A DNA stretch of 64,000 nucleotides from Cytospora piceicola (Eukaryota > Ascomycota > Sordariomycetes > Diaporthales > Cytosporaceae). The notes beneath the pieces were generated by a model that saw only the letters and a list, made by a program, of their open reading frames with translations, was not told where the DNA came from and made no database searches. Where the stretch lies: NCBI GenBank assembly GCA_023375675.1, contig JALQBC010000003.1, forward strand, positions 1,674,001-1,738,000. Reading direction: 5' to 3'. Below, piece by piece: positions 2,126 through 6,662 of the stretch. The first letter of the stretch is position 1, and each line of letters starts with the position of its first letter. The position numbers and the translations under genes are program-made.

Positions 2126-2132
2126 AGCTACA

Positions 2133-2144
2133 TAGCTCAGGGGA
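2133..2144 (+). promoter_or_regulatory. Pol III internal promoter, box A
   Basis: TAGCTCAGGGGA fits the tRNA box A consensus closely and lies wholly in the first tRNA exon, so the insert does not break it. Confidence 0.7.
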
Positions 2145-2231
2145 AGAGTGAGTCAACCCATAAATATTCTACATGTCAAAATTGACACTAACACCAAATC
2201 AAGGCGCCGGGCTCATAACCCGGAGGTCGCT

Positions 2232-2242
2232 GGATCGAAACC
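2232..2242 (+). promoter_or_regulatory. Pol III internal promoter, box B
   Basis: GGATCGAAACC matches the initiator-tRNA form of box B. The insert moves it about 56 nt further from box A than in an intronless gene, a spacing TFIIIC is known to tolerate in intron-containing tRNA genes. Confidence 0.75.
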
Positions 2243-2264
2243 AGTTGTAGCTACTCCAACATTC

Positions 2265-2991: not shown

Positions 2992-5900
2992 TTACTGCTG
3001 CGGCTGATCCACCTGGCTGGCAGTCCTCTGGATCTTCCTCATGGCCCGGCGGTGCAGCTCCATCAGGTCGCTGTCCGTCCTCATCCTCTGCTCGAACATC
3101 CTGCCCGCGACCTCCCTCTCGTTCTTCAGCGTCTCGCGCTTCTGGGTCTCGGCCCTCCTCTGGCTCATCAGGAAGTGCCGCTGCACGTCCATGTCGCGCT
3201 GCACCTCGGAGTCGTGGCTCTGCCGCACCATGTGCGGCGGCAGGGAGTTGCTGGACGACGTCCCCGGGATGCCGTAGACGGAGTTGATCAGGGGCCCCTG
3301 CGGCTGAAGGTAGAAGCCCCCGCCGTGCGCGTTCGCGTTCTTGACGGCGGGCGGCCCGGCCGGCGTGGCGCGGGGGTCCTTCTGGACGGACTGCCGAGGG
3401 TTGCCGAGCTGCGAGCCCCGTACCGCCTGGGCCGGGGGTCTGGTCTCCGGCTGAGCCTTCCGGGGGTTGTGCGAGGTGACGGCCGCGGGGGCGGCGAGGG
3501 AGTTACTGCTACCGCCGCCGATGGGGTTGTGGCCGATGCTGCTGCGCCGCGGATTACCCCTGCTGATGTTCCCACCACCGATCGACGCCATGCTGTTCCG
3601 CCTCAACACCGCCTTGCGCTGGCTCAAGGGCAGGTCGTCAAGATCATTCGGTTCGCTGCTTATGGCGCCGGTGTTGACCGCGACAGGTGGGCCCAGGGCA
3701 GCCACAGTCCCGTACTCGGCGCTGCGCACAGAGCCGGCATCTGAGGCCTCGGCTGAGTTAGAGCTTGGGCTGTCCATCTTGCCGGGCTGGACAGAGTCTG
3801 GGCGCAGACTTGCATGCTTCACCCGCATGAGCATGTCCCGCTTTCCCATCAGGGTCTGTGGGCTGTTGTAGGAAATGACGCCGGGGATCGGAGGCTTCGA
3901 GGAGACCGGCCTCGCTGCTGCCTGTTTGCCGTGGCCATCTGATGGGCTGGGCGAGAATTTCTTGCCCTCTCCGCCCGCCAGCGCGGCAGCAGCAGCTCTT
4001 CGACCTGCCTCGACGGATTCGTCGCCGTCTTCTTCGGCGATTGCTTCCACAGGCCACCCGGAAGCCCGTCTCGGGTCCGAAGAGACTCGTCGTGAAAGGT
4101 GGCCCTGAGGCGATTTCGCAGGCCCTCCATTGGTAGGCGCCTTGACCGAGACTCTACTGCCTGGCACTGCCAAATTCGCTGGACGCGTCGACATCGCAGA
4201 GGCTGACCTGGGCATGGCTGGAGGGGGAGCAGCGTTTTCTGCGGTCTTGCGAAGTTCCTCCACGTCCACTGGTACCGCCCTTTCTTCCTCTTCCATCGTT
4301 TCCGTCGGTTGTGCCTCGGGTGCAGATGAGATTAGTTGCTCTTCTGGTGGAGGCAACTCGGCGTGGCTCAGATGCTTGGCCCATTCGTTCGTACGGTAAG
4401 TCAGAGCAACCCTGGAAAGCCCTTGGGGAAGCCGGTCCTTTGTCAGGCTCGCCGGACCAGACTCCGTCTCAGTTGCCGTCGACTTGCCAGCTTTAGATGC
4501 ACTGCCATCTTCGACAGGCGGCAGCTCCTTTTGTTCCTCAATTTGCTCCTCCGAACTGGGCTCAGTCGACACAGCAGCATCTGACATTGCTTTTCCCGGG
4601 GTCAACTCCGCTGGCTCTACCAAACTCTCGTCTTGCGTGCCGCTGTCAGCCAACTCGGCTCTTATCTCCATGTTGAAAGGCCCTTCGAGCGAAGTCATAT
4701 AGTCTCCTCCATCCGAGCTCTCATCAAGAGTGGCGACAACAGATTCATTGTCGTCCTTGGATGGGACCGCGAACCTCTCCATACTTTCACGGTTGCCATA
4801 GGCTTCAGATTCTACCTGTTTTCCCAAAGGTTGGGACATCCTCCGGAAAAGATCAGCCGATCCTACAGATAAGCGCTTCGCGAACGAGCTCCTCTTGCTC
4901 CCCATAGTCCGTGACTCAAGCAGTTCGCCATCTTCGTCGGCGATCGCAACCACAGATGATCGTCCGTCGTCGTCTCTCGCGCCAGTCTCGCTGTAAGGTA
5001 CCTTGAACGGCAAGGGGACAAGGTTCGGCGCCGGTGTGGCGGAATTCGGCCTCAACTGCTCTGCCGGATCCCTGGCGACAAGTCGAGCCTCCCCGTCCCC
5101 GCCAACAATCCAGACCATCTTCTTGTCTTCGGTCGAACCTGTCGAAAATTTGTTATCGAGTTCGTCCACCGCAACATTGGTAGTGCCCTTGCCATCTGTA
5201 TCTTTGTCAAGACCCTTCTCTGCTGCCGTGCTCGATTTGGGTGAAACTTCGGGCTCGTCCCCATCGAGCTCGACCGCCTCCCAACGACTACCTTCTGTCC
5301 CTTCGGTGGTTGTTATTTCGGTCATCTCAATACCGTCTCCTTCTTCGTTCCCTGAGCAGCGTGTTGTCGTAGCTGTGACTGTCGTCCCGCTGTCGCGACC
5401 CTTCTCCTCGCTGTCTATGTCACCAATCCCAGAGTCAGGTGAGACGTGCACGCTCATTGGGCTTTTTGGATCTCCATAGACAGCTTCCCACTGGTCCCTC
5501 TCACGCGCGTTCGCCATCTCGATATCCCTGCCAACATTCGCCTCGTGTTCATGGTGTGCTGCCTCAGCTTCGACCTTTTCCTCATCCTTCTTTGTCCGGT
5601 GCTTCTTGATGATGCGCCAAAGCTTTATCTGGGAAACAACCCCGACCAGGGCAAGGAGTACCGTTAGAGCTTGCTCAACCTTGATGCCCCTCGTCAAGGG
5701 GTACGTATTCGCACCCATAGGGAATAGTTTTCCATTCACATCCCAAATCCATGCCCAGTACTCCTTCAGACCTGCACGGGTGAAGCAGTCAATACCAATG
5801 ACAATCGCCGTTGCTCCGCTGAAGGAGATGCAAGCTATCATATAGTATGATCTCGTCCACCGGCTGAAGTAGCCTACGAAACCGGCAGCGGAGAAGACGG

Positions 5901-6662
5901 CAATGAAGACGATGACCTTGCTGCCCCCTGAGCCAAGCAGTCCTCCTTCTTTCAGCGTCAGGAGCCACATAGACAGGCAAAAGCCTCCCAGCAGACAGCC
6001 CAGGCACTCTGTAATATCTTTGAAGACTAGGCCTCCGCCGCCGAGTAACGCTCCTGTCCCCACTACAGCAACGACATAGGCGCCCTGTATACCATTGCTG
6101 ATCGGCGGGTTCATGACATAGATGATAAGCAACGTCACCCCAACGGCTGCGAGGTAGGAGACAGAGAAAAAGCAGTGGATCCACCGAGTCTTGATACCTA
6201 TCAGGGTGTAGGCAATGCCGGTGAGGATGAGGATAACGCCGGCGACGCAAAAGCCTGGAGTGATCTGAGGCTCCAAAGGCAGTTCGCCTGCAGGAATTGT
6301 GACTGTGCTGTCGTGTCAGCCCATAGTCCTGCAATATGTATATGGTGTCACCTACCATTGAATGAACTGGTGTTGACAGAGCTGGTGCCACCTGTCACGG
6401 TCGAGGATGCAGAAACGCCGGAGGATGTCGTGGACACTGAGGACGCAACAGAGGACCCGGACGTGACAGAAGCTGTCGTGCTGTGCGCCGAGGCGGATGA
6501 CAAGGCCACATCCTCAGTCGCAGACGGTGAGACCGTAGCGGCAGTCGTACTGGAGTCATCCTGTCGCGGGAGTGGCCGCGCAACACCCGCCAGGACGATG
6601 TTGAAGCACAACAATAAGCAGAGAAGAGCCCTCCATGTTCCTGGTGTTGGAGTGACCCGCAT
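2992..6662 (-). CDS. DUF4203/TM198-like seven-helix membrane protein with long cytosolic tail
   Basis: Model of 1208 residues: exon 1 6662-6352, exon 2 6307-2992. The start at 6662 (MRVTPTPGTWRALLCLLLC) gives a clear signal peptide; an in-frame ATG 16 codons upstream (6710) is possible. Residues about 30-105 are a Ser/Thr-rich, probably O-glycosylated ectodomain. Residues about 120-335 hold about seven hydrophobic helices typical of DUF4203 (TM7S3/TM198-like), for example FCVAGVILILTGIAYTLIG. After about residue 340 comes some 870 residues of charged, Ser/Pro-rich, probably disordered cytosolic tail. Reading phase needs a GTGACA donor (intron 6351-6308); the stronger-looking GTAGGT four bases upstream does not keep frame. 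Function is unknown; a surface or endomembrane sensor or scaffold is only a guess. Confidence 0.75.

Follow-up and report, generated by a model that had tools for sequence, protein, structure and literature searches.

A probable spliceosomal intron in the D stem of the initiator tRNA-Met genes found in Cytospora piceicola

Introduction

To our knowledge, the removal of introns from nuclear tRNAs is regarded as a task for the tRNA endonuclease and no other enzyme. A 64,000-nucleotide stretch of contig JALQBC010000003.1 of the ascomycete Cytospora piceicola (the window in what follows) raises the question whether this holds for every gene, as it carries what a preliminary description of the DNA had read as an initiator tRNA-Met gene interrupted in the D arm by an mRNA-type intron. 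Two readings had been offered there, removal of the insert by the spliceosome or inactivation of one gene copy by a recent insertion. In the portions of the open-licence literature consulted no report of a spliceosomal (mRNA-type) intron in a tRNA gene was found, which does not prove its absence from print.

Results and Discussion

The interrupted gene of the window

The gene and its parts are positioned in the window as follows.

2126-2253, + strand: initiator tRNA-Met gene, whole (sequence read; ARAGORN on the spliced form)
2126-2147, + strand: 5' exon, tRNA positions 1-23 (same in 4/4 copies found)
2133-2143, + strand: box A, internal Pol III promoter, entirely within exon 1 (sequence read against the consensus)
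2148-2203, + strand: mRNA-type intron in the D stem, 56 nt, between positions 23/24 (the three remaining copies have homologous inserts of 55-56 nt)
2148-2153, + strand: 5' splice site GTGAGT (invariant across 4 copies)
2188-2192, + strand: branch-site consensus CTAAC, presumed branch A at 2191 (invariant across 4 copies)
2202-2203, + strand: 3' splice site AG (first AG downstream of the branch motif)
2204-2253, + strand: 3' exon, tRNA positions 24-73 (100% identical in 4/4 copies found)
2214-2216, + strand: anticodon CAT (ARAGORN call, position numbering)
2232-2242, + strand: box B, internal Pol III promoter, entirely within exon 2 (sequence read against the consensus)
2265-2270, + strand: T6 run, presumed Pol III terminator (sequence read)

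When 2148-2203 are left out, ARAGORN calls the 72-nt remainder as tRNA-Met(CAT) with a full cloverleaf and intact stems, which confirms the split gene of the preliminary description. By position numbering the spliced form has A1:U72, G29-31:C39-41, the anticodon CAU, A54, A60 and A73, and its D stem is made of the pairs G10-C25, C11-G24, U12-A23 and C13-G22. We take A1:U72, G29-31:C39-41, CAU, A54 and A60 to be the marks of eukaryotic initiator tRNA-Met; all of them are present in the spliced window gene, including the A1:T72 pair, the three G:C pairs of the anticodon stem and the A54/A60 bases listed earlier, and the intact box A, box B and T6 run were likewise located by sequence. Judged by these marks, the predicted product of the gene is a eukaryotic initiator tRNA-Met. 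Part of a published account of tRNA genes (PMC3978253) names A54-U55-C56 among the initiator marks and also gives the location of boxes A and B. In predicted folding of the bare spliced sequence the cloverleaf has -26.7 kcal/mol against a minimum of -27.2, and is thus not the top fold. The unspliced gene is not called by ARAGORN under four option sets, an ARAGORN scan of the 64-kb window finds no tRNA, and an Rfam scan of the window gives nothing above the gathering score. The protein gene at 2995-6662 (- strand) next to it has its best match in Cytospora schulzeri, with 84% identity across the 420 residues used as query, followed by other Cytospora and Diaporthe, as would be expected of a Cytospora-like member of Diaporthales.

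The insert lies on the 3' strand of the D stem. Its boundary is ambiguous by one base, because intron and exon 2 both begin with G; two cuts yield the identical product, and the GT-AG reading corresponds to one of them. Under this reading the insert begins with GTGAGT, ends in AAG and has 11 nt between CTAAC and its end; for a random 56-mer of window composition the chance of a GTRNGT start together with CTRAY 4-14 nt before a terminal AG is about 4e-6. The preliminary description had named GTGAGT, CTAAC and the terminal AG, and these signals recur at three other loci of the genome. The pair 12:23, beside the insertion site, is U-A here and G-C in the ordinary fungal initiator, a compensated change.

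The insert resembles the mRNA introns of the same fungus

Motif-defined intron candidates of 45-59 nt number 20 in the window, against 7 expected. Thirteen candidates bridge open frames; seven of these, longer than 75 nt, were set aside, and the six of 45-75 nt measure 48-61 nt. These six short introns have GTAAGT (five) or GTAGGT (one) as 5' site, CTAAC or CTGAC as branch motif, and AG. The reference among them lies in the neighbouring protein gene:

6308-6355, - strand: mRNA intron of 48 nt, GTAGGT...CTGAC...CAG (3/3 homologous proteins tried jump the gap)

The tRNA insert is like these ordinary mRNA introns in its length (48-61 nt for the mRNA introns), its GTRRGT-type 5' site, CTRAC and AG, although none of the six has precisely GTGAGT as its 5' site. 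CTAAC stands 11 nt from the intron end in all four initiator copies, and the branch motifs of the six mRNA introns stand 5-16 nt from theirs. The earlier statement that 56 nt is a normal length for mRNA introns of this genome agrees with this, and the insert belongs to the class by its ends and branch spacing as well. What differs is the host, a tRNA of 72 nt whose first exon measures 22 nt.

Four interrupted copies with invariant exons

The genome searched comprises 43,645,921 bases on 99 contigs. With the spliced sequence as query four matches were obtained, in each of which the aligned part opens exactly with base 1 of exon 2, and they belong to the following gene copies.

C25:1676126-1676253, + strand: initiator gene copy of the window, intron of 56 nt
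C32:242300-242427, + strand: initiator gene copy, intron of 56 nt
C32:347855-347981, - strand: initiator gene copy, intron of 55 nt
C1:1034462-1034589, - strand: initiator gene copy, intron of 56 nt

The two C32 copies are about 105 kb apart. No site of the exons varies among the four copies (0/72), and all four introns read GTGAGT...CTAAC...AAG and sit at one site (23/24), each with GT...AG ends and the extended 5' splice site. The interiors have diverged: 25/56 columns of the intron alignment are variable and 31/56 invariant, with pairwise differences of 5 to 22 of 56 columns, and the contrast in variability with the exons (25/56 vs 0/72) has a Fisher P of 2e-11. Within the introns, the columns of the splice and branch motifs are invariant without exception (13/13), whereas 25 of the remaining 43 vary (hypergeometric P 1e-4). 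A hairpin of the window intron was dropped from consideration, as the C32 minus-strand and C1 copies do not keep it.

Identical exons beside unlike introns are the pattern that selection on a working tRNA gives. The perfect exons could partly reflect gene conversion, but conversion alone would level the introns too. Flanks of up to 1200 nt gave no alignment upstream among the four copies, and downstream the sole alignment covers 27 bases between the two C32 copies; since the flanks are mostly unalignable, the four copies are not recent block duplicates. As the four introns are homologous, a single gain is indicated, which may then have spread by gene duplication or conversion. The second reading of the preliminary description, a single inactivated copy, is therefore unlikely, as the intron is present in each of the four copies found, and neither the exons nor the splice and branch motifs vary among them; that the insertion was recent is not supported either, the introns differing at up to 22/56 columns between copies.

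On the evidence of the sequence, the insert has what is expected of a U2-type intron, with GT...AG ends, a branch consensus at fungal spacing and invariant motif columns. We consider it highly likely that these are working cytosolic initiator genes, whose Pol III precursor carries a U2-type intron in the D stem that the spliceosome removes. The shared site, the invariance of exons and motifs in four copies and the diverged intron interiors support such removal.

No uninterrupted initiator gene was found

Intact initiator genes elsewhere in the genome, along with the lack of any transcript or joined read from the interrupted locus, had been named in the preliminary description as an observation that would speak against its reading. 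Four different searches of the genome found no uninterrupted initiator gene and returned the same four interrupted loci each time. The pattern CTCATAA-N12..17-GATCGAAAC gives four genome matches and the pattern GGGCTCATAACCC also four, with none for the reversed control of either, and an ordinary fungal initiator sequence, used as query with E up to 10, leads to the same four loci. The genome searches score best candidates only; in the tRNA family search 58 matches came from 63 scored of 1659 candidates, which is no census. Among these 58 matches the CAT tRNAs called by ARAGORN are confined to the C65 locus, which is treated below, and one match (L069) was not called.

These figures bear on the possibility that the four genes are interrupted pseudogenes or relics and that a working initiator gene lies outside the assembly or is too divergent to be detected. 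The small share of candidates scored in the family search leaves some room for it, but the absence of any exon difference (0/72) despite diverged introns, promoter boxes that are both intact, the T runs, and the agreement of four different searches on no other initiator gene make it very unlikely.

ARAGORN calls none of the four copies in unspliced form, so a tRNA finder can miss the initiator tRNA of a genome. Of the three other unspliced copies (L001, L002 and L004), two are below the tRNA cut-off of Rfam. The C32 minus-strand copy reaches 30.3 bits against a cut-off of 29 with intron bases serving as a poorly paired 5' half, and is taken as a weak false match.

In a collection of genome contigs, the 5' exon followed by GTRNGT occurs in at least 118 stretches, plus 42 in viral contigs, which are chance matches: an initiator-like 3' half within 400 nt was present in 0/160 of those matches listed. 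The 3' exon gave no match in viral contigs in each of two scans.

Which machinery would remove the intron

Several classes of intron can be set against the data. Group I and II ribozyme cores measure hundreds of nucleotides, and a self-splicing intron was rejected, 55-56 nt being far too short and no Rfam match being present in the window at gathering scores. The insert is not a canonical nuclear tRNA intron, as it sits at 23/24 and not at 37/38. The canonical introns cut by the Sen endonuclease are likewise found in nuclear tRNA genes; they differ in their position at 37/38, whereas the initiator intron interrupts the D stem, carries spliceosomal signals and, in the minimum-energy folds of the four precursors, does not pair with the anticodon loop.

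More has to be said of an ectopic tRNA intron, for which the tRNA-splicing endonuclease would excise the insert from the D arm and tRNA ligase would seal the exons, in the manner of some archaea and possibly of Cyanidioschyzon. The enzyme is surely present, since many tRNA genes of this genome have introns near 37/38. According to part of PMC3978253, ectopic tRNA introns away from 37/38 also occur in Crenarchaeota, where the D arm is among the named non-canonical sites, in Cyanidioschyzon merolae and in the Guillardia nucleomorph. Such introns use or approximate a bulge-helix-bulge, although many of those of Guillardia form no defined motif. The initiator introns differ, as no bulge-helix-bulge was found and spliceosomal signals are conserved instead. 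Searched as a 4-bp central helix with starts tried at -1 to +3 of each junction, the motif is absent in 4/4 precursors in both cut registers, and a bulge-helix-bulge intron was rejected within these offsets. An endonuclease would moreover not need GTGAGT, CTAAC and AG, which are the conserved parts. According to the review PMC3978253, Sen54 of yeast probably makes contact with both D arm and acceptor stem, and precursors that are disrupted outside 37/38 are unlikely substrates for the complete endonuclease. Endonucleolytic excision from the D arm is thus very improbable.

When the precursors are folded by prediction, their acceptor and T stems persist with a probability of 0.92-0.96, and the branch motif is open with one of 0.85-0.97. 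The 5' splice site, on the other hand, is unpaired with a probability of just 0.22-0.69, which counts against removal by the spliceosome.

Spliceosomes normally act on Pol II transcripts, and as these are their usual substrates it might be thought that splicing takes place on Pol II read-through transcripts of the loci alone, the tRNA being released later. Boxes A and B are, however, present in each copy separately, as is a run of T5 or T6 shortly downstream, Pol III gene features that were recognised by sequence, and the flanks are unrelated bar the 27 bases in one pair. The longest T run within the four introns is 2, and therefore no internal stop is expected for Pol III. We had considered the lack of T runs as a mark of Pol III selection and dropped it, as none of the six mRNA introns contains TTTT either (0/6). 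Since the U6 RNA of S. pombe, a Pol III transcript, has its intron removed by the spliceosome according to part of PMC8917221, Pol II is not needed, and dependence on read-through is extremely unlikely.

The preferred reading, spliceosomal removal from the Pol III precursor, would proceed as follows. Pol III would transcribe the initiator genes from box A in exon 1 and box B in exon 2, and the spliceosome, through recognition by U1 and U2, would use GUGAGU as 5' site, CUAAC as branch and AAG as 3' site. Excision of the lariat would join A23 to G24 and restore the D stem, in which G22-A23 meet G24-C25. End trimming and then CCA addition would follow splicing, in this presumed order.

U6 and other Pol III RNAs

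Introns of mRNA type are present in the U6 genes of some other fungi besides S. pombe, and a 2016 survey reportedly covered U6 introns in fungi. Two U6-like genes were found in the genome:

G000:C68:682185-682400 (approximate), - strand: U6 gene with two apparent mRNA-type introns, inserts of 53 and 60 nt (L234)
G000:C63:24720-24818, - strand: uninterrupted U6 gene, two differences from the family consensus near ACAGAGA (L233)

In the C68 gene the 53-nt insert (GTAAGT...CTAAT...CAAG) is located 3' of the 5' hairpin and the 60-nt insert (GTAGGT...CTGAC...CACAG) between GAAGAT and TAGCATGG; without both, the gene aligns with the uninterrupted U6 over its length. The second, 60-nt insert contains a box-B-like AGTTCAAGTC. 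The C63 gene may have arisen as a copy of spliced U6, or it may be the principal U6 gene.

The U6 gene with two apparent introns and the S. pombe case together make a spliceosome route for Pol III transcripts plausible here. This route is not general to Pol III RNAs, as the gene of the fungal SRP RNA, which we take to be another of them, gave one full-length match (274 bases for 293 model positions) with no intron. RNase P RNA gave one match, of 388 bases for 301 model positions.

The S. pombe U6 gene (PMC8917221, in part) also holds a short GT-AG, branch-bearing intron in a Pol III RNA gene, removed by the spliceosome. The differences are that U6 is itself a part of the spliceosome, whereas here the host is a tRNA, boxes A and B flank the intron and all four copies found are affected.

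Taken together, this fungus very probably has a spliceosomal intron fixed in all its initiator tRNA genes. With the intron present in each of the four copies found, the start of translation would depend on its splicing. It is likely, from the genes as read, that all cytosolic initiator tRNA of the lineage passes through the spliceosome; this would be a route distinct from that of the endonuclease, with initiation under direct spliceosome control, and would show that spliceosomal introns can invade an essential tRNA gene and reach fixation in all its copies. If this is true, the rule of endonuclease-only nuclear tRNA introns is broken in the most constrained of tRNAs, Pol III transcripts besides U6 can reach the spliceosome, and splicing capacity is coupled to translation initiation. 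The genes would also offer a natural system to study how U1 and U2 recognise a short uncapped RNA with a 22-nt first exon.

Other tRNA genes of the genome

The many tRNA genes with introns near 37/38 imply that this fungus must have a working tRNA endonuclease route. From part of the matches listed, among 161, we examined 37 distinct T-arm contexts. For 25 of them an ARAGORN call could be matched, with introns, where given, at positions 33-39 and no D-arm intron among these 25 tRNAs; isotypes are partly misread by ARAGORN, e.g. Val for Thr. The remaining 12/37 contexts are without a call, and several are probably chance matches. A nuclear elongator tRNA-Met did not turn up among the tRNA genes covered.

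The C65 contig (L009, L014, L015, L021, L022) has 135 kb with dense mitochondrial-type tRNAs and near-duplicate tRNA sets, and from the density and type of its tRNAs it probably represents a mitochondrial genome of large size. For one Leu tRNA of this contig, a doubtful call, an intron of 95 nt is given at position 25.

Variation of introns near 37/38 is seen in the tRNA-Val(AAC) genes (L255, L271, L280, L273, L256), where three genes have a long intron, another has one of about 10 nt and the fifth has none. At G000:C20:302850-303300 (L283) there is the 3' part of a tRNA-Thr(CGT) followed by a T run, with no 5' half recognised in the stretch examined; this fragment lies near a full Thr gene on the opposite strand. 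The region G000:C21:384810-398602 (L071, L072) carries a 14-kb cluster of five tRNA-Asn genes together with single Lys and Val genes.
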